A DNA stretch of 61,557 bases from Tepidisphaeraceae bacterium (GTDB lineage Bacteria; Planctomycetota; Phycisphaerae; Tepidisphaerales; Tepidisphaeraceae), in contig DASYHQ010000024.1 of NCBI GenBank assembly GCA_035998445.1, positions 1-61,557 on the forward strand. Reading direction: 5' to 3'. Shown piece by piece: positions 32,806 through 60,207 of the stretch. The position numbers and the translations under genes were made by a program. The notes under the pieces were generated by a model that worked only from the letters and a program-made list of their open reading frames with translations, did not search any database and was not told where the DNA came from. The stretch's first letter is position 1; every line of letters starts with the position of its first letter.

Positions 32806-32910
32806 CGCGACTGGGCGGCCGGGTCGATCTAAGGTGCCCAGCGCTGTGAGGCCACCGCTTTGCAAGTTTGATGTAGAGCTGACGGCAGCGGGCAGATTTA
32901 CTCCACCGTT

Positions 32911-33038
32911 CCCACCCCTTCCACCCGCCAACCCGGTAGCTAACCGGTAGGGGACCTCGCACGTCGCGGGTCCCCGCACAACCCGTTGCCAGGCAGCACG
33001 CCGGTCCCCGAGGGAAGGTCGTTGCGGGTATCGGTCCC
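32911..33038. repeat. Dispersed structured element, copy 1
   Basis: About 130 bases closely related to 38362-38495. It can fold into stem A (CCGGT 32933-32937 with ACCGG 32943-32947), stem B (GGGGACC 32950-32956 with GGTCCCC 32969-32975, plus CGC/GCG) and stem C (ACCCG 32981-32985 with CGGGT 33025-33029) that encloses stem D (TCCC 33005-33008 with GGGA 33012-33015). Changes in copy 2 keep the pairing. It lies between two convergent genes. Strand of action unknown. Confidence 0.65.
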
Positions 33039-37892: not shown

Positions 37893-38361
37893 TGATCTGC
37901 AGGCTTCGAGTCCCGGATCGTGTCGTCCGAGCGCGCGATGAGGATGGGGTCCGGATTGCCAGGTGCAGTTGTGGGATGGCCGATCATCAGAGGGGGGGAA
38001 CGGGAGCCAATCGCACTTCATCAGAACCCCTGGCAGCGTTTGCAACATGCCGGCCAAACGCGAACCGGGAACGAACGGTCGTCCTCGAGAAGGTAGCGAT
38101 GCCGATTCGCAATGGCGAGCCCGTACGTCTGTCCCGCGAGGTCGAACTGGAACGGCGTTGCCATCGCGAAGACGCGCTCCCGTGCGACGTAACATCTCAT
38201 TACCTCGAACGCAGTCCATGTAGCAGGAAACGTTCCCACCCCGGCCCACGCACCAAGAGGTTATCCCGCCGCGGGTTACACGCCAAACCTTTTCCCGCGG
38301 CGCTCCGCGTATTCTGGAAACGGGTTTGCGCGAAGTTTGGTTGCCAGCGTTCTCCCGCCTT
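37893..38361. other. Region upstream of the glycosyltransferase gene
   Basis: 469 bases. It holds one weak minus-strand frame (38021-38239, listed separately) and otherwise nothing recognisable. Confidence 0.35.
38021..38239 (-). CDS. Possible small hypothetical protein
   Basis: A 72-residue frame from GTG 38239 with fairly protein-like composition (RERVFAMATPFQFDLAGQTY, RHRYLLEDDRSFPVRVWP). No ribosome site of note, no family recognised, and an internal ATG near 38197 is an alternative start. It may be a decayed gene piece. Confidence 0.25.
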   Translation of the reverse strand: MGTFPATWTAFEVMRCYVARERVFAMATPFQFDLAGQTYGLAIANRHRYLLEDDRSFPVRVWPACCKRCQGF

Positions 38362-38495
38362 CCCCACCCCTTCCGCCCGCCAACCCCGTAGTTAACGGGT
38401 AGGGACCTCGCGCACCGTGCCGAGCGTCCCGCCGATAACCCGTTGCCAGGCAGCACACCCATCTCCAAGAGAAGGTCGTTGCGGGCATCGCCTCC
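38362..38495. repeat. Dispersed structured element, copy 2
   Basis: Related to 32911-33038 over its whole length. Pairing is retained with different bases: stem A is CCCGT (38385-38389) with ACGGG (38395-38399), stem B is GGGAC/GTCCC plus CTCG/CGAG (38402-38430), stem C is CCCG/CGGG, and stem D is TCTC (38462-38465) with GAGA (38469-38472). The longest unpaired block shared by both copies is GTTGCCAGGCAGCAC. The small frame at 38509 begins 14 bases downstream. Confidence 0.65.
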
Positions 38496-38508
38496 ACCCG
38501 GAGTCCCG

Positions 38509-38775
38509 ATGTCGTACCTCGACCCGACCGACCCGTCCCCGATGTCCGCAGAAGACCGCCTCCGCGAGGTTGCCGCGATCCTCGCCAAGGACGTGCTGCG
38601 CCCCTGCACCGCCGCGGTGCGCTGCGCTCGGGCAGCCACTCCAATCTTGGTCCTGTTTCACGCTCGGAATCAACCCCCGATCGACTTGATGTGTCGGCCC
38701 GGATGGAGCACATGGGACACCGTGGTTAACACGCTCAGGACGAAGGAGATGAGCATGAGCATCGCCGTGAATTGA
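38509..38775 (+). CDS. Small protein with the SAEDRLREVAAILA motif, possibly decayed
   Basis: The first 30 residues (MSYLDPTDPSPMSAEDRLRE, VAAILAKDVLR) match a short planctomycete protein pattern often found beside recombinases and DNA-binding element genes. The remaining 58 residues have no such character and may be a shifted or unrelated frame. There is no strong ribosome site. It is best taken as a remnant of the same class of mobile element as at the start of the window. Confidence in the N-terminal motif is moderate; that the whole frame is expressed is doubtful. Confidence 0.4.
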   Translation: MSYLDPTDPSPMSAEDRLREVAAILAKDVLRPCTAAVRCARAATPILVLFHARNQPPIDLMCRPGWSTWDTVVNTLRTKEMSMSIAVN

Positions 38776-38870: not shown

Positions 38871-39570
38871 GAATTTTTCTCGACACCGGCCCTTTTCGGC
38901 GGACTCATCAGCGCTACAGGATAGACCCGCCCGGGGGGCGCTTATCTGCGTCAGACCGTTGCGCCTCGCCCTGCCCTACCCCCGTTCTTCGCTTGCAAAG
39001 CGACCGGGCATACAAGGACTCCCCCGGCCCCGCCTTCGAGCGTCCGGACGGCGGCCGTGCCGTGCCAATCTTCGATCCAAATTTTCCAGGATCGACATGA
39101 CGTGCGCGGTTCCTTCGAGGCCTCGCAGCGCATCTTCTTCGGAGGCTTCTGATGAAGGCTTTAGAAGGTCGACTCCGTTGAGCGCGGGGTGGAGATGCCG
39201 TGGGACAGTACGACGTGCAGCGTACCGTGGACAACCGGTCCGGTAGAGCGGCACGGGATCATTCACAGTCTCGCGGGCTTCGAATGCTACCCCTAGGCGA
39301 GTCGCGCATTTGCATTAGCGATTCCGACGCGCCGTGCCGGATGTCGTTCGGTCGGGCCGTGATGGCCGCCTCTCAATACACGCCGTAGGGTGGTGACGGC
39401 CACCCTCCGTGTCTCCACAGAGCGAGACGTGATCGGTGAACGGCCATCGCAGCTTACGATGCTCCGAACTGACGTGCGTGTGGCGGCCGTGTGGACCAGG
39501 GGGCGATGGGCTCGGCGATCGACGTGCTCCTGATCGCGAGGCGTCCCGCCCTAGGCTCTGCGAGGCGTTA
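38871..39570. repeat. Diverged tandem repeat, copy A (about 700 bp)
   Basis: Starts at GAATTTTT and aligns with 39713-40420 through a series of shared blocks: GCGCCTCGCCCT, GAGCGTCCGGACGGCGGC, CAGCGCATCTTCTTCGG, CAGCTTACGAT and others, separated by substitutions and small gaps. No frame is conserved across the whole repeat on either strand. On the minus strand a short translated stretch with WHGTAAVRTLEGGAGG is shared. Non-coding or a decayed gene pair. Confidence 0.6.
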
Positions 39571-39712: not shown

Positions 39713-40420
39713 GAATTTTTTTCACCGCCCCCTCCGCGATCGCTCTGCCCCTTTGTCGGCTACGGCACCACCCCCCCGGGGTGCTCATTTGCGTTCTGCC
39801 TCTTGCGCCTCGCCCTTCCATATCCCTCTTCTACCCCCTGCAAAGCGAAGGGCGTTCTAAAGCCCCCCGGCCCCTCCCCAGAGCGTCCGGACGGCGGCTG
39901 CGGCGTGCCAATTCTCGATTCCGATTTTCGAATACATCAACCCGGCATGTGCGGGCACTTGGGTCCGCACAGCGCATCTTCTTCGGCGGCTTTGAGCAGG
40001 CGATTTGGAGAGGTGACGCGTCGGGCGTTGAACGGAGACGCCGTGGGGCAGAAGGGTGAGCAACGTCGGATGGAATAAGGGTCCTGTAGAACGGCAGCCA
40101 GTCATTCGCAGCCTCGCGCGACTTCGGAATGTCCCCATAGGCGGACAGCGCACCTGCACCAGCAGTACCGACGCGACATGCCCGGATGCCGTGCGGTCCA
40201 GCCCTAATGGCCAACCCCTCAGTCGAGGCGAGAGCGCGGTGACTGCCACGGTTCGTGCCTCCCCGAGGCGAGCTGACAGCGGGGACCGGCTTCGCAGCTT
40301 ACGATCCTCCGCGCTGACGCGCGTGCGGCGGCGTGGCCATCGGGCGAGGCGATCGGCGGCGGGGCGGCTAGTGACGTGCCCGTGGCGGGGGCGTCGCGTC
40401 CGACGCATCGGCGCGGTGTT
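39713..40420. repeat. Diverged tandem repeat, copy B (about 708 bp)
   Basis: Second copy of the 38871-39570 sequence in direct orientation, beginning at GAATTTTTTT. Collinear over its full length with many substitutions. The minus strand has the related translated stretch WHAAAAVRTLWGGAGG. No ribosome site supports a gene in either copy. Confidence 0.6.
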
Positions 40421-40885: not shown

Positions 40886-43800
40886 ATGAGCTTACGCAAG
40901 ATTCTCGGAATCGGTCGGGCACGGTCCGCGCGCACGCGTCTCCAGCAGAACATCTTCGAGCTCCAGCCGCTGGAGCAGCGCCTGCTGTTCGCGTTCCAGG
41001 CCGGCGTGAACTTCCAAGTGGAGGAGAGCGGCACCCCCGCCGGCTACTACCGCGACTTCGGCCAGACCTACCGCGCCCACACGAATGGCCTGACCTACGG
41101 CTGGAACACGTCCAACAGCGCCAACGCCTTCGACCGCGGCAGCACGGCGGCGCCCGACAAGCGATACGACACGCTGGCTCGCATGCAGGCGAGCGGCGGG
41201 GCCAGCACGTGGGAGATCGCCGTCCCCAACGGCACCTACCAGGTAAAGGTCGTCGCCGGCGACCCGACCGTCACGAGCGGCGCAACGTACAAGATCAACG
41301 CCGAGGGCACGCTGCTCGTCAACGGCTCGCCCACCAGCAGCAATCGCTGGGTGACGGGCACCGCGAACGTCAGCGTGAGCGACGGTAAGCTGACGCTCAC
41401 GAACGCCAGCGGCGCGGTCGACAACCGTATCGCGTTCGTCGAGATCACCGACGCCTCGCGCACCTCATCCGTCCCAGCCGTGCCCACCGGCGTCCGCGCG
41501 CGCGGCGCCAGTGCGACGAGCGTCGATTTGATCTGGAACGACGCCAGCGACAACGAGACGAGCTTCAAGGTCTACCGCAGCACCAGCAGCGGCGGCACGT
41601 ATTCGCTGATCGGCACGACCGGGCCGGGCGCGACGTTCTTCAGCGCCGGCGGCCTGCCCAGTTCGGCCACGCCCGCGACGTACTACTACAAGGTCGCCGC
41701 CTCGAACGCGGCTGGTGACTCGGCCATGAGCGGCTACGACGGGCGTAAGGCGCTGGCCAACAACGTCAGTCAGGTCGCCTACACGTCGTCCAACGCACCC
41801 TGGGCGGTCGGCCCCGCCGCCGGCACGGCCGGGATGCGCGTCGAGGCCGAGGACTTCGACGCCGGCGCTCAGGGCATCGCCTACAACGACGGCAACGGCG
41901 CCAACATCGGTGGCGCGTACCGCGCTGGCGGCGTGGACATCGCGCGTTACCCGCTCGTCAGCAGCGAGTACTTCGTCGGCTGGACGGTGCCAGGCGAGTG
42001 GGTCGAGTACACGGTCAGCATCGCGACCGCCGGCACGTACCGCCTCGACGCGCTCGTCGGCTACCAGAGCACGGCCGGCACGTTCCACGTCGAGACCGGC
42101 GGCATTGACCTGACCGGCGCGATGCAGGTGCCCACGACCGGCGCTGCGACGACGTTCTCGACCGTCACCCGCAACGTCGTGCTATCGGCGGGCACGCACG
42201 TCCTGCGCGTCGTGGCGGACACGGAAGGCACGGCCGGCAACGGCGTCGGCAACTTCAACGCGATGACGCTGACGTACCTGCCGGCGCTGGCGACGCCGAC
42301 GAGCTTCAACGGCACGGCGACCTCCCCGACGCAGGTCAACCTGACTTGGACCGACAACGCGAGCGGCGAGAGCGGCTACGAACTGCAGTACAGCGAGAGC
42401 AGCACGTTCGCCAGCGGCGTCACCACGGTCGCGCTTGCCTCCAACGCGACGAGCCGCAGCGTGACCGGGCTCACGGCCAGCAAGACGTATCACTTCCGCC
42501 TGCGGGCCATGAACGGCACGGCCGGCGGGGTGCACGCCACGACGAGCGTCACCACGCCGGCGCTGGCGACGGCGCCCGCCGCGCCCAGCGGGCTGGCGGC
42601 GACCGCGATGTCGGCCACGCAGATCAACGTCAGCTGGACCGACGCCTCCTCGAACGAGACCGGCTTCGTGATCGAGCGAGCGACGAACTCGACGTTCACG
42701 CAGGGCCTGACGTCGGTCGCGGCGACAGCGGCGAACGTGACGAGCCACAACAATACGACGGGCCTGAGCCCGTCGACGACCTACTACTACCGCGTCCGGG
42801 CGATCAACGGGGCCGGCGACTCGGCCAACAGCAACACCGCCAGCGCGACGACGCAGCCGGCGACGCCGGGGGCGATCACGACACCGCTGTCGCCGACCGA
42901 CGACACGTACGTGCAGGACGGCGGGAACTCCGGGAACTCCTACCCCATCTCGACCGAGCTGTTCGTCAAGACCTTCGGTTACGGCGGCAACCGTAACGCC
43001 TACCTTAAGTTCGACATCAGCGCGCTGAGCACGACCAACTCGGCGACGCTGCGCCTCTACGGCCGCAACTCGAGCTCGACGCCGGAGAACGTCGTCGTAC
43101 ACGTGCACGAAACCCTCAATGACGGATGGCAGGAGGAGACGCTCACGTGGAACAACCAACTAACCGAAGCCGGATACTCCAACACCAGCCTGGCCAACGT
43201 GACGGTGCGGGACAACGTGATGCGCTGGTACGAGTTCGAAGTGACGGCGCTCGTTGCAGCGCGCAAGGCAGCGGGCGCTAGCGTGGTCAGCCTGGCACTG
43301 CGCAGCCCGGACTACACCACGAGCGTGCCGATCTTCAACAGCAGCAACGCCACCAGCAACCAACCGCAACTCGTGGTCGTCTCTCATCCGCCGATCGCGC
43401 CCAGCGGGCTGTCGGCGACGGCCGTGTCGCCGTCGCAGATCAACGTCAGCTGGACCGACGCGTCGGCGAACGAGACCGGCTTCATCGTCGAGCGCAGCAC
43501 CAGCACCGTGTTCCCGGTCGGCGCCGAAACCGTGGTCGTCACCACCACTGCCGCCAACGTCACGAGCTACAGCGACACGGCGGGCCTGAGCCCGTCTACC
43601 ACGTACTACTACCGCGTGCGGGCCAAGATGAGCGAGACGCTCGCCTCGGCCAACAGCGCCATTGCCACCGGGACCACGTTGCCCGACGGGCCGGCGACGA
43701 CGCTCGGGGCCGTGGCCGACGCGTACGTGCAGGACGGCACGACGAACGAGGACGAAAACTTCGGCGGGTCCGCGCAGCTGCTGGCCAAGACGACGGGCAC

Positions 43801-46800
43801 CGGCGGCAACCGCAACAGCTACCTCCGGTTCGACCTGACGACGATCACAACCGTCGAAGACGCCAAGCTGCGCCTCTATGGCCGCAACAGCGATGCGGCG
43901 CCGGAGAACGTGGTCGTCCACGTCTATCAAGCGGCGAACGAAACGTGGCAGGAGATGTCGATCGACTGGCTGAACCAGCCGGGATTCACGGGCTCAAGCC
44001 TCGACAACGTGACCGTGCCGGACAACGTGCTGCGCTGGTACGAGTTCGACGTGACCGCCGTCGTGGCGGCCCAGAAGGCGGCAGGCGCGACGAGCGTGAG
44101 CTTCGAGCTGCGCAGCCCGTTCTACAGCACGAGCCTCCCGATCTTCAACAGCAGCGATGCCAGCAGCAACCAGCCCCGACTGGTTGTCGTCGCTAGCAGT
44201 CCGGTAACGACGCCGCCCACGGCACCGTCGAACCTGACGGCCACCGCCGCGTCACCGACGCAGGTGAACCTGGCGTGGACCGACAACGCGAGCGACGAGG
44301 GCGGGTTCCGCGTCGAGCGTAGCACCGACGGCACGGCCTTCACGCCCTTGCCCGGGATGCCGCTGGCGCCCAACGTCACGACGTACAGCGATTCGACGGT
44401 CGTGGCGGGCACGCGGTACTGGTACCGCGTCGTCGGGACCGGCGCGGCTGGCGCGCCAGACTCGCCACCGTCCAACACCGTTGACCTGACGACGCCGAAC
44501 ACGCTAAACGTGAGCATCGATGGCCCCTCCTCGATCGACGAGGGTGGGGCGTACACGTTGTCGCTGTCGGTCAGCGGCCAGGGTAGCGATCCGGTCGATC
44601 ATTGGTCGATCGATTGGGGGGACGGCGTGGTGGAGACGCTTCCGGCCTCCGCGTCGCAGGCGACCCACGTTTACGTCGATGGTGACATCAACGCGACGAT
44701 CGTCGCAACCGCGGTCACGGTCGGCGCCCAGTCTGCCGCCGACTCGCTGGCGGTCGACGTCGAGAACGTGGCGCCGACGCTCTCGGCGATCGGTCCGAGC
44801 GCGATCAACGAGTTCGAGACGTATGCGCTGACGCTGGCGCGCTCGGACCCCGGCGCGGACACGATGACGTGGACGATCGACTGGGGCGATGGGTCGGCCG
44901 TTCAGGTGTTGCCGGGTGACACGACGTCCGTCGAGCACGCGTACGGCCCGGCGACGACGGCTGGCGTGGTGACGATTACGGCATCCGATGAGGATGGGAC
45001 CTACAGCGTCCCCAGCGTCGCGTTCGACGTGGCGCCCGCGAAGCCCGTCGGCCTCACGGCCACGGCGCTGAACGGCACGCAGGCCCAATTGCAGTGGCTG
45101 GCGTCCACCGCGATCGGCGACAGCATCGGGATCGAGATCTCCAGCGACGGTCTTTCGTTCGTCCCCCTCGCGACCGCGACCGTAGGTGCGGGCGGCTACC
45201 TCGCCGATAACCTGGCGCCGGGCGCCGACGTCTACTTCCGCACGAACGCGGTCCGCGCCGGCGGCGCGGCCTCCGCGTGGTCGAATACCGCGTACGTGCG
45301 GACGCCCGGCTCGGTCGTCGCGACCGGTGCGGCGGCGGTGGACGAGGGGGCCACCTATCAGCTGGCGCTGCACGCGAACGCCTCCGGCGTGTCCGGCTGG
45401 ACCATCGATTGGGGCGACGGCTCAACCGAGTCGCTTCCCGGGACCGCCACCAGCGTCTCCCACGTCTACGCCGATGCAGCGCTCGGACGTGAGATCAACG
45501 TCGCCGCCAGCGCCGGCTCCACAAGTTACGAGGCGGATCCGGTCCACGTCGACGTCGGCGAGGTGCCGCCCACGGTGGCGGTGAGCGGCGCCGTGACAGC
45601 GACTGCCGGGGACACGTACCAGTTGGGCCTGCACGCGTCGGATCCCGGGACCGACACGGTCGTCGAGTGGCGCGTGTCCTGGGGCGACGGCTCGGCCGTG
45701 CAGGTGGTGACGGGCAACCCCTCGTCGGTCACCCATGTCTACTCGGCCGCCGGCCAGTTCGCGATCAGCGCGGTCGCGATCGACGAGGACGGCAGCTACC
45801 GCGTCGAGCCGCTGGTTCTGGACGTCGCTCCCGCACTGTCATCCATGGCGATCATGGGCCCGTTGCCCATGTTGATCAGCAGCTCGTCGACCGTCGCGGA
45901 CGGCGTCCTTCGACTGGACGGGAACGACTGGGTGGCGGTGACGTCGCCAGCGGCGGCCGACCCAGGGACGGCACTCGCGGAGGGGGCGCACTGGGTGCTG
46001 CGCGAGGGGGCATCGTTCCTCGTCGGCATCGAGCGCACACTGACCGTTCCGTCCGGCGTCGACACGCTCGCGCTCGTGTACGAGGGGCTGACGTTCGACG
46101 GGACGAGCCAGGGCCGAATCAACGACGCGCTCGAGGTGGCGCTGCTGGCGGCCGACGGTCGGCCGCTCGCGAGCTTCGCGGCCGACCGTGATGCGGCGTA
46201 CAACGTGACGCACACGGTGTCCGGACACGCGGCCGGCGCCGGGGTCGTGGCAAGCGACCTAGGCAACGGGCGGACCGAGCTGCAGTTGGACGTCGCGGCC
46301 CTGCAGGGACAGCAGGTGCGCGTCCAGTTGCGCCTCGTCAACGCCGACGCCGACAACGATTCGACCGTCCGGCTGGTCGGGAGCGAGGCGCCACAGGCGA
46401 CGCGTCCGCAGCTGGACCCGATAGCGCCGATCACCGTGGACGAGGGCGGTCGCGCCACCCTCGTCGCCACGTTCAGCGATCCGGACGCTGGCGATTCGCA
46501 CGCGGCGATGATCGATTGGGGCGACATGAGCGGCCCGCAGCCGGCCACGATCGACCCGGTCACCAAGACGATCACCGCCGAGCACGTCTACGCCGACGAT
46601 GGCAACCGGACCACGGGGCAGGGAACTTACCACCCGCGCGTCCAGTTGACGGATGGCGTGACCGAGCCGGTAACGGAGTTGGCCACGGCAACCGTCCAGA
46701 ACGTCGCGCCGCGCCTCGACGCGAGCATCCGGTTCGAGCCGATCGTCCAGAAGAACGCCCGGCAACTGGCGACCGTGATCTCCGGGACGTTCGCCGATCC

Positions 46801-49800
46801 GGCGTTCAACAATCCGTCGGCGGGCACGAGCGAGACGTTCACGGTCACGATCGACTGGGGCGATGGGACCGCGCCACAGCGCGTCGCCGCCTCGGTCGTC
46901 CCGGGCGCTGCCGGCACCGAGACGGTCGGCACGTTCACGGCGACCCACGTGTACGCCAACGCGCCGTCGTTCGCCGGGCAGCGGTTCTTCAATGCGACCG
47001 TGACGGCCGCCGATGACGACCAGGGCGCCGCGACGCGGTCGTTCGGGTTTGGCCTCGTCGACATCCGCGTCGTGCCGACGGTCAACGTCGGCAGCACGGG
47101 CGTCACCTCGGTCCACATCTACAAGCGCCCCTGGTTCGAGCCGGACGAGATCGACGTCGACACGCTGCGGTTCGGCCCCGGCGGCGCGCCCGAGGACGAC
47201 GGCCAACTCGAGTCGCAGGGGAACAACCCGTTCCGGCGCGCCGACTTCCGAACGGCGCTGAGCGGGATCCGACTGGGCGACACGGAGGCGTTCGTCACCG
47301 GCCAGCTCAACGACGGCACGTTCTTCGTCGGCATGGACGAGATCAAGACGAACGGCTCGCTGCCGACCCGAGCCCATGGCGCGCTCCCCGGGTCGCCGAA
47401 GTTCTTCGTCGTCAATGACGGCGCGGCCGCGTCGGGCGACAATGCGTATCGCTACACCGCCGCTGGCGGCGCGATCGGCTTCTACGCGATGGACGCGACG
47501 ATGCGCCAGCCACGCGGCGTGGCGTCCAATCCTGTCGGCGACCTGCTGTGGACGATCGACGGGGCCGGGCAGGTGCAGGTGACGAACGCGGGCAATGGCG
47601 CGTTCCTGGGCGCTTGGCGGGCGGCGCAGGTCGAGCGGGCGAGCGGCATCACGACTGACGGCACGAACATCTGGGTCGTCGACGATGTCCAGAAGCGCGT
47701 CCGCCTGTACGCCAACGCAGCGGGCCTGCGCAAGGGCATCGCGTCAGAGGCGTCGTCGTTCGCGCTTGCCGCGGCGAACGCGAGCCCGACCGACGTAGTA
47801 ACGGACGGGACGACAATCTGGGTTACCGACGACGCGACCGACAAGGTGTTCGTCTACGCCCGGGACGGGCAACTCCTGGGCCAGTGGCAGCTCGACGCGG
47901 CGAACGCCAACGCGTCGGGCATCACGTTGGCCGCTGGCGAGGACGACCTGTGGGTCGTCGACCGCACGACGCGGCAGGTGTACCACTACGCCGGCGCCAC
48001 CGACTGGCGCGACGGTGCGCGTTCCGCCGCCGGCACGTTCGCGCTGCAGACCGCCAATACGACGCCCGAGGGCATCGCGGACCCGCCGACAATGCCTCCG
48101 ATGGTGTCGAGCACGCCGGGCACCGTACACAGCGTTCCTGGCGTCGGCGATCTCTGGGACGTGACGTCGGCGTTCGAGTTCGGGTACGACCGCACGAGCC
48201 TTTACGATGCAGATGACGCTCTGTTCGCGGGCCTTTCGGTCGAACGAAAGGCTGGCGACAGCACGTTCATGCGGAACCGCTTGCTCTTGGTCGTCCGCGA
48301 CATCAGCGAGCCCGGCATCGTCCTCCCGAATGCTCACGGACTGACCGCTGATGGTCATCCGTACTACGATCTGACGGCAGCCATCGGATCCAGTTCTGCA
48401 GGGCAGTTCCCTGCTACGGCTGCGACGCAAGCTGTGCTCCAGTTCCTCAATCCCGGGCGCCAGCGCTTCGGTTACACTCTGCAGATCCTGTCCGGTGGGA
48501 ACACGGCGCCTCGCTTCGCGTCCGACCCGTACGCCGGCGACCAAGGGCATGCGTACTCCGTGGAAGCGGCCGGCGGCAGTGTTCTAGAGATCGTCGCGAA
48601 GAGCGACAACACGCTTCGGTATCCCCTGGCAGGCGACGATCGTGAACAGGACCCGGTCCGCTTCGAGATCGTCTCCGGCCCGGCCGGCATGACGGTCGAA
48701 GACGTCGATGGTCAGCCCGTACTAACGTGGCAGCCGACACTTGCGGGCACGCATACGGTGCGGCTTCGCGTGTTGGATCAACCGCACGGCGCTACAGATC
48801 GCGCCTACGACCAGATATTCACCGTTCGCGCCGTCACAAACGTGCAGAACCGCCCGCCACGGTTCACCACCACGCCCGTGGTCGTGGCCTACGCCGGTGA
48901 GGAGTACCGCTACGACGCTGACGGATTCGACCCGGACGGCGACACATTAGCGTTCTCGTATCTGCCGGATGTGGACGAAACGTTGCGGCCGGGCGGGGAC
49001 TTCGCCATTGCGCCAGGCAACGGCGTGGTGACGTGGCGACCGACGTACGCGGACATCGGTAAGACGTTCACCGTCCGCCTGCGCGTCAGTGACCAGCAGG
49101 AACCGGCCCTCTACGGCGAGCAAGAGTATCAGATCGAGGTTCGCCGCGGCGTGATCCCCGGGGTGTCTGGCACGCCCGACCTTACGGTCACCAACGTCAG
49201 CGCCGAGGGTGTCCGTTTCGACCCGCAACGGCTCCGTGCCGAGGGCGTTGTGACGGCCACCATATCGAACATTGGCCTCGGCTCGGTGAACGACCCGTTC
49301 GACGTGCTGTTTTTCGAGGACCTCAACTTCGACGGCCAGTACACGTCATCTACCGATAATGTCCTCGGCTCGACTCGCGTGGAACAACCATTGATGCCGA
49401 CAGAACCGATCGCGGTCGCTGCGGCGATCTCCGGCGCGGTGCAGTTTGCCGGCGGACACATCTGGGCGTTCGTCGACAGTGGCGGTGTAATAGCGGAAAC
49501 AAACGAACTCAATAATGCGGACCGAACTAAACGGGACTGTCGGCTGCTGGAGACGACGGCGCCCGGCTATACCTTTTCGATAGCCGACGGCTATGACAAC
49601 GAGGGCAACTTTACCAACGTGGGTAATCATTTCCATGCGGGTGCCACCATTCCATTCGGTAACCCGCCGGGATCAGCCGAGGTCGGCGGGTTCGAATACA
49701 GCGAGTCCGTCCGAGGGCTTACGGAATTTGCTATCGACGGCCTCGCAGGCGAGGCGAGCATTGACTTTCGGGTCGGGATCATGGGCGGGCTGTTCTGGCA

Positions 49801-52800
49801 GGGGCCGCTGTTGAACCACACTATTCAGGTCGACGCCTATGCCGGCAACGGCGCCGAGGATATCACGGACTACGAGGCACCGTCGCTAGGTGTCGTTGGA
49901 ACGTTCGGTACTAGTGACCTTGCACTCCACGACGTGTTGTCGTTCGATCTGACTAACATCCTCGCTACGGCAGTTGCGAGTGAGCTCGACTGGCTTGGCG
50001 TACGCCTCTTGGTCCTGCCAACGGTCCGAGATCACGTCGCACTCACGTTCGACCAGTTCCACCTACACACCGCAGGCGGCGAAGCACCCGACCTCATCCC
50101 CTCGTATCTCCGGACGTCGCAAGAGTCCGGTAACACCTCATATACTGTCCGCGTCGGTAACGCGGGTAACGTCCAGGCTCCTACGAATGTACGAGTTGCG
50201 TTCTATGATGGCGATCCAAACGCTGGAGGAACATTCCTTGCCACGAACGCAACTCTAAGTACGATCGACGCAGGCCGGTACCAAGACGTCAGTGTGACCG
50301 TGCCAAACGCGCCATCCGATGATCTCTGGGTCGTCGTGGACGACAACGAAACTGTGGCTGAATGCAACGAGACGAACAACAGCTACAGCCTCGTTCTGGG
50401 ATCCGCGCCGCTGGCATTGAACGAGAACCCAGTGATCACCTCGGTGCCGGCGTGGGCCGTCCACGAAGGCGACGAGTACGAGTACCAAGTCGTCGCGACC
50501 GATCCAAACGGTCACGCTTTGGCGTACGAGCTCGTGACGAAGCCGGTGGGCATGACGATCGACGCCGTCACCGGTAAGGTCACGTGGCAGCCTCGCCCGA
50601 CGGACGTGCGCGCGCACGTCGTCCTCGTCCGCGTTAGCGATGGCCGCGGCGGCACCGCGATCCAGCGTTACGAACTCGACGTGCGCACGACGAACCTGTC
50701 CCCGGAGATCACATCCCGGCCTACCGGGCCAGCGGCGCTCGATCAGCCGTACCGCTATCAATTGTCAGCGGAGGACGGTAACGGCGACAAGCTCATGTGG
50801 GCGCTGGATGCAGCGTCGCGCGCACTGGACGTAACCATCTCTACGTCCGGGCTACTATCTTGGACGCCGGAGGAAGTCGGCGAGTTCCGCATTGCCGTCT
50901 CGGTGTCCGATGGCCGCGGCGGCACGGACGTACAAACGTTCTGGCTGTCGGTCGTCAACGAGAACACGCCGCCCCACATTGCCAGTGCGCCGGAGGGGCC
51001 GATCTTCGTCGATGAAGAGTGGTCCTACGATCTGCTCGTCAGCGACATCGAGGACGGCGACAACGCCGCAGGCGCGAATGACAAGTTCACGTTCTACCTC
51101 GACGAGGCCGCGACCGAACTGGGCATGGCGATCGATGCGGCGGGGCGGTTGACGTGGACGCCGCGCGTCGGCGGTACGTTCGTCGTCACCATCAGTGTCC
51201 AGGACAGCGGTGGTGCGACCGCAAGCCAAACGTTGACGTTGCCGGTCGAGAACCGCCCGACCGTCAACCGGTCGGCCGACATCTACAGCGAACCGACCGG
51301 GCCTGCGCTGGTCGGCAGTCCGTGGCAGTACCTCGTCAAGGCGCGCGACCTTGACGGCGACGCCGTGACAATGTCGGTCACGAAGTTCCTCGACGCCGAC
51401 GGTACGCCCATCACCGGTTACACAGAGACGCAGGTCAAGCCCGGACAACTGCTGATCGAGTGGACACCCACCGCGGCCGTCAAGGGCCCGGTGCGCGTCG
51501 AGGTTAGTGCCGCGGATGTGCCCGACGGCGCCGGTGAGGTCCAGTCCTTCGACTTGGCGGTGCTACAGACCCGTCCACCGAACAACCCGCCGACGATCAC
51601 ATCGACGCCGCCGCTGCCGGGTGTGGGCGGCGCGGATTACGTGTACGTCGTCCGAGCGACTGACGCTGATGGAGACGATGTGACGTTCACGCTCGGCGGC
51701 GCCGACGCGGGCGGCTTGACGATCGTCCGGATTGATGGCCAGAGTGCGCGGGTCCGGTGGGCCAGCCCGCAGCCAGACACGCAGCGTGACTTCACGATCC
51801 GCGCGTCGGACGGTCAGGGCGGTTGGGCTGAGCAGCGGCTGGTCCTGCGCACGGGCTCCGGCACCGGCGCGGGCACGGCCGACACGCCGCCAACGATCAC
51901 GAGTGAGCCGATTTACGCCGTTGTTGCCGGGCAACCATACCGGCAGAAGGTGACCGCCACCGACGCCGATGCGTCGACGACCGCACCCATCAGCTACGGC
52001 CTCCTAGCGCCGGCCCGGCCCGGACTGCAGGCATCGATCAATACCGCTACGGGCACGATCGATTGGCAGACGACGACGGCGGACATCGGCGAGTTCGACG
52101 TGATCGTGACCGCATCACAGGCCGGTGCAACTGCTTCCCAGCGATTCCGCGTCCGCGTCACCGATCCCGCGGCCAGCAACGCACCCCCGACGATCCAGCC
52201 CGCCACGGGCACATTGCGCGCCGTGCCAGGTGGCACGTTCGAGTACCGGGTCTTCGCGGTCGATCCAGACGGGCATGCGTTGACGTTCTGGCTAATGGAC
52301 GGAGACAATCCCGTAAGTGAACTGGACGGTCTTCGCATCGACAATCAGGGCCGGGTCGAATGGGCGGTGCCGCCCGGCGCCCAGCCACGTAGCTTCACCG
52401 TGCGAGCGGTCGACCCGCTGGGCGCGACTGACGATCAGAACTTTGATGTCGGCATCGGGACCGACCTGCCGCCCACGGTGTCGCTCGCCGCATCTACGAC
52501 CTCCCCAACCGCTGGTAGCGAGGTCCGCTTTTTCGTCCAAGCTCAGGACGACTTGGGCATCGCCGCCCGTCAGGTGACCCTCACTGCGCCTTGGCTTACC
52601 ACGCCGCTGGTGATCGACGTCGGCACCGACGGGATAGCTCGCTACACCCTGCCGACGAGTTCGACGATTGCCGGTCAATCGTTCAGCATTAAGGCCACGG
52701 TACGCGACACCGGCGGGAACGTCGTAACCACCGGGGCGCTGCCGCTCGCGGTAGCTTTTGCGGGCACCGCGTCGCCGGCCATCGCGCTCTACGGCGTTGG

Positions 52801-55800
52801 TAACGGCGTTGTATTCGACCAACCTACGGACCTGGCCGGCCGCGTCACCGACACGGATGGAGACCTCGTCTACTGGTCGCTCGTCGCCACGCCGAGCGAC
52901 GGCCGCGCGCCGATCACGCTGGCGTCCGACGGAACGCTCAACGGCACCACGCCGATCGACTCGGTTGACGGGTTCCTCGCGACCGTGAACACGAGTGAAC
53001 TGGCGAACGGCAACTACCTTTTCCAGCTCTTCGCTCAGGACGCTAGCCGCCGCGAGCGAAGCCTCAGTTTCACCGCCGCCGTCAAGAGCAATACGGCCGA
53101 CAAGGTCGGCGACTTCGCCCTGAACTTCACAGACCTTGAGACGACCGTCGGGCCCGTGCCGATCACGATCCAGCGCACGTACAGCAGCAACCGTGCGGAC
53201 CAATCTGGCGATTTCGGTTTCGGCTGGGACCTGACGGTCAGTCGCGGCAAGCTGGAGGTCGATGTCCGCGCCGGCGAGGATCCGTTCTTTGATGGTTATC
53301 TGCGAGCCTACGCGACGGGTACGCGCGTCACCATTACGCTGCCCGACGGTAGCACCCGTGGGTTCACCGCGGTGGCGCTGCCTGACACGTCAGGGGATTT
53401 TGGAGCGGGTGGGTTCCTCAGCTTCGCCAGCCTGTACACGATCGCCTTCATGCCCGATGACGACAGCCGCGACGTCCGCCTCGAACTTGCCTCGGGCGAC
53501 GTCAAACCGCTGAACGTCGGGCCCGGGCAGGGCTTGCCGCTCGATCTCGGGTTGCCGCCGGCGCTGACGGAGAACGGGTTCGTCACGACGACGCTCTACG
53601 TCGATGACAACGGAGAGTTCCGCGAGCCCCTTATGGGCGGCGGCCTTCCGTGGAACCCGGCCACCCACGGCGTTGACTTCCAGGTCGAGACGCTCGACGG
53701 TACCAAGTACACCTACGACTCCGAGACCGGCGAGCTCATTGGCCAGTCCGACCGCGTTGGCAACAGCGTTACCTATGCCAACGACGGCGACGTCATCGAG
53801 TCACGCAAGAACGGCACGCTCACTGGTAAGGTCGAGATCGTCCGCCTGCCGTCGTCGCACCTCGTCGACAAGATCACGTGGTTCCACAGCGGCGCCCAAG
53901 GTACGACGAGCGACACGATCGAGTACGACTACGTCAACGGGGAACTCGTCACCGTCACCGACCAGACCGGTAAGGCGACGCACTACGGGTACAATGAGAA
54001 GTGGGAGCTGGTTGACGGCCAATGGGTCAAGTCGGACGGTCTGCTCGGCCGCCCGCACTTCCTGACGCGCATCACGGATGGGACCAACGGCGTTGATGTC
54101 ATGCGCGCCATATTTGACCCGGCTACGGGCCACCTTCAGAAGTTTATCGATGCCGACGGAAACTCTGCGGCCGTCTCGGTGTCGACCGCACTGCCGGGCG
54201 GGCTGACTGCTGAGATTGTCCGCAACACTGCTGGGTACGCGACCGAAACCGTTCGCGACGGCCGCGGGAACGTCGTCCGTCAGATTCAACAGACGGGAAC
54301 ATTGACCTATCTCGTGACCGTCTCGGCCTACGACGGCGAGGACAACAAGATCTCCGAAACCCGCCCGTTCTCGATTACAGAGAGCAGTGGGACCACGACG
54401 CTCCGATATACGACGACTCCAAGCGGCACGGCCGTCCACGCCTATCGGGGCGAGTACAACGACGATCGTCACCCGCACCTGCCGACGAAGGAGGTCGACG
54501 CGGCCGGCGTCGAGACGACTTACGTTTATAACGGCCGCGGCGACGTCATCTCGATGACCGAAGGCGGTGAATTGACGACGAACACGATCGACAGGACAAC
54601 GGGGCAGTTGACCCAGTCGGTCGATCCGGCCGGCAACCTCACCATCTATCACTACGAGCAGGGCAACCTCGTCCGCGTTGAACAACGTACACCGTCCGGG
54701 CAGGTGCGCGATCTGGTGAATACCGGGTACAACTTGCTCGGACAGATGACGTCGAGCACCGATTCGACCGGCGTGGTCACGTCGTACGGCTACGACGCCC
54801 GCGGTCGCCTGAAGTCGACCTCCTACGTCGCTGCGAACGGCACGGTCGTCCGCTCCGAGACGGACTATGACGCGGCCGGACGCATCACCGGGGTCCGCAA
54901 GTTCGTCAATGATGTGGAAGTGACGGAAGACGCCGCTTCGTTCGATGCGGGCGGACGAATGCTGACTGTCGTCGACCGCTTCGGGCACGTCACGGTCAAC
55001 CGATACGATGCCCGCGGCAATGTCGTTGAATCTCGCAGCCCCGAGAAGGACGCACAGGGCAACGACGTCGTCGTGATCGTCCGGACCGCGTACGACGCGG
55101 ACGGTCGCGTCATCGCCCGAACCGATCCCTACGTCGAGGGAACCGCGACTACGAACGTGCGCGTCACGCATACGCTATACGACAACGCAGGCCGCGCCCA
55201 TGAAGTCCGACGGATCGGTGGCGTGGACGTCGCGTTGACGCATGTGACGGGCGGTACGGGTTCTGATTACCTGGGAGGTCTGTTCCGCACCACGTTCCAG
55301 TACGACCGAGTTGCCGACACCTACGCCGGCACGCCGGCCGCGGACCGCGTCATTTCCGCCTCGTCCACGACCTACGACGGTCGCGGGCGCGTCGAGACGA
55401 CCGTCAGCGAGACCGGGCTCGTCACGCATCACGAGTATGACGACGCCGACCGAGAGAAACGGGTCTGGTTTGAACTGGACATCGACGGGGACGGTGACGA
55501 CGACCTGCACGAGACGACGTTCGCTTACGATGCGCAAGGGCGCCAGACGCTCGTCCGCGACGCCGCTGGACGCGTGACCGAAACCCAGTACGACGCCCAA
55601 GGACAGGCCACTCACACGATCCTCCGGGGGCTCACGCCGGCGAACGTGACGCCGGGGTCGCCGGCCGACACGAGTACGGCCGACGACATCGTGCTCGAGC
55701 AGGTTTACGACGAGCGCGGTCGGCACCTTGCCGACGTCGACGCGCTCGGCCGGCGCACGGACTACGAGTACGATGGGGACGGCCGACTGATCGCCGTCAC

Positions 55801-59213: not shown

Positions 59214-59362
59214 ATCCGAAGTTGGCAGAAGTGAGGGGTTGCACGAAGCAATGGGCCTAGGAGTCTTTGTTGAGGCATTTCTCGGGTCTGGGTAGATTAT
59301 CCGTTTGCCCTGTCACCTTTGCGACACCACCGGTGGTCTCGCCTACCAACGGCGGGGCGGCG

Positions 59363-60207
59363 AACCCCGGGACCGACCAGACGAAGAAGATCGTCCGAGC
59401 GGGTCTGACGGACGCGGGCACCGTGACGGAATCCACGACGTATGGCTACGACGTGGCGGGTCGCATGTCCTCGGTGGCGGTCACGAGCGGGTCGACCGCG
59501 ACGACGACCGTCACCTACGCCTACGACGCGGGCGGCTTCCGCGTGGAGCGGACCGAGGGCGGCCAGACGACGGTCTACCACGTCGACCCGGCCAACCCGA
59601 CCGGCTACGCGCAGGTGCTGGAGGAGGGCGTCGATGACGACGGCGACCGTGAGCTGGACGCGAACGAGGTTGACGTCGCCTACACGTTAGCCGGCGAAGT
59701 GCTGACGCAGGCGACGCGCCAGAAGGTCCTGCACCTGGTGACCGACCCGCGCGGGACGACGCGGGCGGCGCTGGACATCTGCGTCAATCCCGCGACCGCC
59801 GCGGCGGTGAAGGAGCGCTACGCCTACACGGCCTACGGGCTCGACCTCGGCTTGGCTGCCAACCCGATGACGGCCGTTCGGTACGTGGGGCAGATGATCG
59901 ACCCCGTGAGTGGGTTGAGCTTCAACCGGGCACGGTGGTACGACCCGGGGCAGGGGCGGTTCACGCAGGTCGACCCGTGGGCCGGGCAGGCGCGCGAACC
60001 CAGCACTTTAAACAAGTATGCTTACACCCATGGTAATCCAGTTAACTCGTCCGATCCGACAGGAATGTTCTCGGTGCTGGAAATACTCATCTCGAACTTT
60101 GGCAGTGTGGGCGAGAAGCTAGTTCAATCGTACCGTGGAGCTAAAACGACCTTCATCGCGGCTCAAATGCTCGTTCGCTTAACATTGGTCCGGATGGAAA
60201 TTGTGAC
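59363..60207 (+). pseudogene. Orphan RHS core plus alternative CT start, cut by insertion sequences
   Basis: A headless copy of the RHS C-terminal core: NPGTDQTKKIVRAGLTDAGT, RYVGQMIDPVSGLSFNRARW, NPVNSSDPTG, then a different pretoxin (MFSVLEILISNFGSVGEKL, SYRGAKTTFIAAQMLVRLTL). The open frame starts at 59267 without a credible start codon, and it is broken at 60208 where the IS630 element begins. This is the layout of a silent displaced CT cassette that can recombine into the full-length gene through the shared core. The alternative toxin domain itself is missing. Confidence 0.8.

Follow-up and report, generated by a model that had tools for sequence, protein, structure and literature searches.

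A structured leader RNA of phages, its remnants in a Tepidisphaeraceae contig and its probable action as a refolding switch

The window (the whole stretch of 61,557 nucleotides analyzed here, contig DASYHQ010000024.1 of the Tepidisphaeraceae bacterium assembly GCA_035998445.1) carries two homologous repeats, which the original prediction had placed at 32911-33038 and 38362-38495 and which we confirmed. Both copies and the recombinase fragment described below lie on the forward strand. The limits of both copies were set by blastn with the intact cassette on contig C23 of the same genome as the query. Copy 1 (32902..33033; R1, 137.2 bits) is a truncated type 1 leader, i.e., a leader that stands before a small ORF, a DUF2924 gene and a serine integrase (recombinase) gene. 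Within it, the 5' strand of helix E (AACCGGT, 32942..32948) faces its partner at 32981-32987 with a central C-C mismatch, as read from the sequence and from pair counts. The stem B hairpin (GGGGACC.CGC/GCGGGTCCCC, 32950..32975), obtained by folding, is optional and lineage-variable. Hairpin 1, the conserved 42-nt core, occupies 32988..33029 (53.9 bits with R2 and E 6.4e-10 when the whole genome was searched), and its 3' strand is the putative switching strand. Homology to intact cassettes stops at about 33033, 5' of the Shine–Dalgarno hairpin and the start codon.

Copy 2 (38350..38730, 80% identity to the C23 cassette) is the longer remnant and comprises the leader and a decayed small ORF start. 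Its helix E is fully paired (AACGGGT, 38394-38400, with ACCCGTT, 38438-38444) and encloses stem B, the whole spanning 38394..38444. Hairpin 1 follows at 38445..38486 (R2, 59.9 bits, E 1.6e-11), and hairpin 2 (CATCG..CTCC/GGAG..CGATG, 38486..38511) contains the Shine–Dalgarno sequence (38500-38503) and the start codon (38509-38511) in the same layout as in relatives. The small ORF (MSYLDPTDPSPMSAEDRLREVAAILAKD..., 38509..38640) has a decayed start when its translation is compared with the intact copies. At the contig edge (2..490), tblastn (95% identity, E 2e-106) and blastn located part of a serine recombinase gene (recombinase residues 183-345) that belongs to this family of cassettes. Just 3' of copy 2 lies a second, unrelated repeat pair of 66 bp (39021-39086 and 39864-39929, 82% identical). 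The stretch 40886-58648 encodes a 5920-aa surface protein with RHS-type repeats; part of the 3' region of its gene (57192-57641) is duplicated downstream at 59349-59801, as in alternative RHS tip cassettes.

A search of the Tepidisphaeraceae genome yielded 12 full copies (E 1e-55 to 6e-17), far above chance, and 2 copies with the 5' part only. The element had been described as intergenic; this held for both window copies, but most of the 12 copies lay directly 5' of the start of a small phage ORF. No element inside a coding frame was found among the genomes examined. When the aligned copies were extended downstream, most led to a start codon that opens a small ORF (MSYLDPTDPSxMSVEDRLREVAAILARGVLRLHRR...), followed in 4 of the genome's copies by a DUF2924 gene and then a serine recombinase gene. 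The complete cassette (leader-sORF-DUF2924-recombinase) measures about 2.1 kb. With the intact C23 cassette as the blastn query, the left end was common to all copies and the 3' end of similarity varied: it covered 132 bp in copy 1, 385 bp in copy 2, 138-550 bp in other copies and 2.1 kb in the complete copies on C23 and C36, and in 2 further copies the contig ended after 1.3 kb of the cassette. The shared left end, together with similarity stopping at different distances, indicates that the window copies are truncated remnants of a phage integration cassette; both are decayed remnants of type 1 leaders.

The copies differed further at their 5' side. L004 and L012 had more than 100 bp in common upstream of the shared left end, unlike the other copies. 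The 5' leader block (CACCCCTTCC..GGTAGTTCACC..GTAGGGG) also occurred alone, without hairpin 1, at G000:C23:114204-114231 and C40:4095-4122 (L013 and L014), between a sigma gene and the next phage gene, suggesting that the 5' block is a separate module. As a phage-wide promoter, this block (GAACTYCCGCCGGGTAAGTAA-like) was rejected; in 15 scanned loci it was almost restricted to type 1 leaders.

The truncation of the window copies and their lack of intact downstream genes would also fit a repetitive mobile element that at present serves no function here. This is likely true of the two window copies themselves, but in intact phages the family shows selection on its structure, and intact cassettes persist in the same genome (C23 and C36). 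A mobile repeat leaves the structure unexplained, and as the whole explanation of the window repeats we give it little credence.

The expectation of an undescribed structured RNA selected for pairing was borne out by a hairpin in 100 copies, 90 of them distinct, with 97.4% of cells paired. The conserved core is the 42-nt hairpin 1, GCCaGGCAGC..GTTGCGGGC, with three asymmetric (two-against-one) internal loops; its conservation is inflated at the positions fixed by the DNA pattern with which much of the sample was collected. Among the 90 distinct hairpins, 126 double-change cells were counted against 26 expected from shuffles, and 9 of the 15 pairs had changed on both sides. None of 500 shuffles matched the paired or the double-change measure, and sliding the partners by one column lowered pairing to 33-39%. 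Similarly, 8 of 15 pairs carried changes on both sides in 17 diverse seed hairpins, and no shuffle reached their score. The compensatory change in the hairpin thus exceeded that of all shuffles. The covarying pairs 1:42, 13:32 and 20:26 were free in the DNA pattern, and pairs beyond the fixed positions still covaried. Relatives showed compensatory changes in the 3' hairpin from GCAGC/GTTGC to ACAGC/GTTGT and from ACC/GGT to GCC/GGC, as well as the variants TCCC/GGGA, TCTC/GAGA and TCGC/GCGA. A covariance model built from the 12 copies reached other families and classes of the phylum.

The stems proposed in the original prediction fared differently. Stem D was real and forms the tip of the larger hairpin 1, with strong covariation; stem B was real as well (32950-32960 with 32966-32975 in copy 1), but optional. 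Stem A (CCGGT/ACCGG) had to be given up: its central pair was present in only 4 of the 12 copies, the structure was no better than shuffles, and the 3' strand assigned to it pairs instead with ACCnGTT upstream of the hairpin (helix E, AACnGGT/ACCnGTT). The blocks GTTGCCAGGCAGCAC and AAGGTCGTTGCGGG, taken to be single-stranded, are actually both arms of the main hairpin. A model of helix E, stem B and the 3' hairpin gave 92.4% of cells paired in the 12 copies, which was better than shuffles; the 5' block, like stem B, varies among lineages. Two other helices were discarded: CCCGC(c)AAC/GTTGCGGG, a long closing helix from single-copy folding, is lost in relatives with a differing 5' region, and CCCCT/AGGGG, obtained with RNAalifold, is weak.

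A DNA pattern for the hairpin matched 73 stretches in GTDB genomes and 39 in IMG/VR. Judged by record title, the GTDB matches came mostly from Planctomycetota and also from Desulfobacterota, Acidobacteriota, Myxococcota, Nitrospira, Anaerolinea, Calditrichaeota and others. Outside the Tepidisphaeraceae genome, 111 of 126 hairpin model matches preceded one of two phage gene sets, related phages being counted as separate; in 7 of the remaining 15, the sequence ended within 300 nt. One set is the type 1 context. The other, type 2, consists of a gene for a sigma-70 region 2 protein, then a conserved ~100-aa protein and then, where loci were read, genes of phage replication, among them those for a Sak4-like protein, SSB, helicase and primase. 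Pfam identified DUF2924, resolvase/recombinase and sigma-70 region 2 domains, and PHROGs identified integrase, sigma factor, terminase large subunit, primase and Sak4-like protein; the viral contig L208 also bears a terminase gene. The RNA is thus a structured family in phage leaders with two gene contexts, and the window holds decayed copies of it.

Both contexts occurred together. At least 13 viral contigs had a type 1 hairpin and then, at a distance of about 2.4-6.3 kb and on the same strand, a type 2 hairpin; as a rule, one phage has a single copy of each. In four Desulfobacterota genomes (three of Desulfosarcina, one of Desulfobacterium), 2-3 hairpins each were present genome-wide, two of them sharing a strand at a spacing of 3.6-9.5 kb. 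In the Tepidisphaeraceae genome, C23 carries a type 1 leader and, 4.8 kb downstream and just 5' of the sigma gene, a weak type 2 hairpin; C36 carries a type 1 leader and a type 2 hairpin as well. A pattern-free search gave matches in 29 of 392 genomes of the phylum. Of 20 new loci inspected from this search, 10 had marker genes downstream (a count that includes one with the small ORF only, one with a late recombinase and one with a weak DUF2924 match), and at least 3 looked like chance matches. Twelve type 2 matches scored identically (53.1 bits) on contigs assigned to several phyla (L109, L110, L114, L115, L117, L126, L135, L151, L167, L169, L170 and L172), and their surroundings were nearly identical where read; this may reflect a broad host range, recent transfer or assembly contamination. 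Downstream of the hairpin in L110, a Desulfosarcina widdelii prophage, we observed a large ORF with a terminase-like N-terminus and a weak match to an intein splicing domain.

The hairpin adjoins the integrase gene in type 1 loci, near the fixed left end of the element. This position would suit a DNA site, namely a dyad-symmetric operator or a serine integrase recombination site, in which the covariation would reflect half-site symmetry. The three conserved asymmetric internal loops break such a dyad, and G-U pairs are common at two hairpin positions (27 and 31 of 90), so that an RNA fits better than a symmetric DNA site. The hairpin is equally present before sigma genes 2.4-9.5 kb away, far from the element end, which is not the placement of an attachment site, and its 3' strand has further complementary partners with terminator and anti-Shine–Dalgarno features. 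We regard a DNA site as very improbable; on context and asymmetry, an integron attC-like or integrase att site was ruled out.

These partners were most evident in type 2 leaders. The 3' strand of hairpin 1, here called X (GCGGAGGTCGTTGTGGG), is complementary to Y (CTCGCAACACCTCCGC), located 25-60 nt downstream, and in 31 of 36 type 2 leaders the X:Y duplex outdid 95% or more of the dinucleotide shuffles. The region from X to Y folds into a single long hairpin (mean z -6.0), with 31 of 35 leaders below -3. A T-rich stretch, as found in intrinsic terminators, follows Y in only about half of the type 2 leaders (L137, L191, L219, L207 and L212 among them); therefore, termination is not assured for every one of them. 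Z (CACCCACACGAGCTCCTCC), just 5' of the sigma gene, is also complementary to X, the X:Z duplex beating at least 95% of shuffles in 27 of 36 type 2 leaders, and the CTCCTCC of Z faces the Shine–Dalgarno sequence of the sigma gene. In the complete leaders that were folded as examples, the free minimum was reached via X:Y or X:Z, and the best fold in which hairpin 1 was enforced was 5-21 kcal/mol less stable. By these computations, X would be one strand with mutually exclusive partners.

Between type 1 and type 2 leaders, X is almost unchanged in sequence, and both Y and Z are its complements. Hairpin 1 might accordingly be the body of a short RNA that is made from one leader and pairs with the other via X, as a trans-acting small RNA or antisense RNA. 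Each type 2 leader, however, has a Y and a Z of its own in cis, which vary in step with the X of that leader (e.g., in L213, L182 and L188); pairing in cis therefore suffices, and a role in trans seems improbable to us.

The start codon of type 1 leaders lies about 20 nt downstream of the end of hairpin 1, and the Shine–Dalgarno sequence tends to sit in a small hairpin (mean unpaired probability 0.36). According to computation, the GGG of X can pair with a CCC just 5' of the start codon, closing a hairpin around the Shine–Dalgarno sequence. A CCC within 7 nt of the start was found in 50 of 72 type 1 leaders, as against 79 of 989 control ORFs (8%). The duplex of X with the start region beat shuffles at the 5% level in only 14 of 66 leaders, and the z of the hairpin was modest (-2.0). 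Since pairing was significant in so few single sequences, the type 1 platform rests mainly on the CCC enrichment and the modest z. The type 1 pairing is the weaker half of the argument for a switch.

We consider it probable, with some reserve, that the two window copies are what remains of a switch RNA that acts in cis in the leaders of a temperate phage group, with two expression platforms in two operons. We assume that hairpin 1 would form first during transcription and that a trigger would hold it, such that X is kept from Y or from the start codon and the operon is on. Without the trigger, X would refold, and transcription would stop (type 2) or translation would be blocked (type 1). In type 2 leaders, X may also pair with Z, which would otherwise pair with the Shine–Dalgarno sequence of the sigma gene. 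The most likely trigger would be a phage or host RNA-binding protein that recognizes the conserved internal loops; alternatively, it may be a small ligand. Integration and replication operons would then be set jointly by one signal.

The same placement could be explained by a put-like antiterminator, in which hairpin 1 acts directly on RNA polymerase and causes read-through of terminators, the X-Y terminator being the first to be overcome. Such an RNA would head two operons of one phage, as seen here, and the highly conserved unpaired bases and the terminator-like hairpin directly downstream in type 2 leaders are in line with it. Nonetheless, X is itself a strand of that terminator, which fits refolding better than action on the polymerase at a distance, and the type 1 leaders show a platform of Shine–Dalgarno sequence and start codon rather than a terminator. 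We hold antitermination to be unlikely, while taking it more seriously than the DNA site or the RNA acting in trans.

Beyond the window, the refolding reading can be widened, more tentatively, to a phage-borne class of RNA switch in which one sensor hairpin would serve a transcriptional platform (sigma and replication genes) and a translational platform (integrase), co-setting integration and replication by refolding in hosts of several phyla; we treat this as a possibility that falls short of even chances. Control of lysis and lysogeny is known mostly through repressor proteins that act on DNA, and a shared leader RNA, if true, would be a different layer of control. It would be common to two operons, one for integration and one for replication, in a widespread, uncultivated and little-known phage group, and the hairpin sequence would serve to recognize such phages as well as their remnants, including many short fossils in planctomycete genomes.

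As had been anticipated, the element could be assigned to none of the RNA families in Rfam 15, which gave no match in the window at gathering scores. At permissive thresholds, Rfam 15 gave no match over the leaders in the tested planctomycete, type 1 and type 2 loci, returning only chance matches and tRNAs. INPHARED contained neither a DNA match nor a match to the sigma protein. Papers that mention DUF2924 describe no such leader as judged by their titles and abstracts, and within the literature collection covered, searches on phage leaders, riboswitches and serine recombinases and on put RNA found no description of it. The Rhodopirellula-1 candidate RNA motif (Weinberg et al. 2010, PMC2864571) is listed in that paper as possibly cis-regulatory, with Proteobacteria and Planctomycetes as its sources, and stands in its table without an Rfam number; by description, the only basis of comparison, it resembles the hairpin element in phylum listing and cis-regulatory label, and identity is neither claimed nor excluded.

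Among known phages, Acidithiobacillus phage AcaML1 and Wolbachia phage WO have homologous serine integrases (about 50% and 44% identity, respectively) preceded by small genes in a similar order; in AcaML1, the integrase operon runs small ORF, small gene, large subunit, small subunit. The hairpin model matched neither of the two integrase stretches. The operon can therefore work without the hairpin, as its absence from AcaML1 implies. Moreover, the hairpin stood upstream of only 7 of 30 DUF2924 loci, which, taken with AcaML1, indicates a feature of one phage group and not of DUF2924 genes. HK022 put RNA acts at the left and right early operons, letting polymerase read through terminators. Like the put RNA and the nut sites of lambda, the element is a short structured RNA heading at least two operons of the same temperate phage (in at least 13 viral contigs and four Desulfobacterota genomes), with terminators downstream, a likeness of placement; unlike them, it contributes the 3' strand of hairpin 1 itself to the terminator-like hairpin, and one of its platforms is translational. 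With riboswitches and attenuator leaders, it shares a position in 5' leaders or just upstream of genes and a conserved sensor domain whose 3' strand doubles as part of a terminator in some leaders and serves to sequester the start region in others (X with Y and Z, and more weakly in type 1). It differs from them in its genes, which are those of phage integration and sigma/replication operons instead of metabolic ones, and in having a single small hairpin in most lineages, compared with a multi-helix aptamer; a ligand role of the hairpin is putative. By analogy, the element would work like a riboswitch or attenuator and is placed like the put and nut sites, any membership in a ligand-binding riboswitch class or in the put family being no more than putative.
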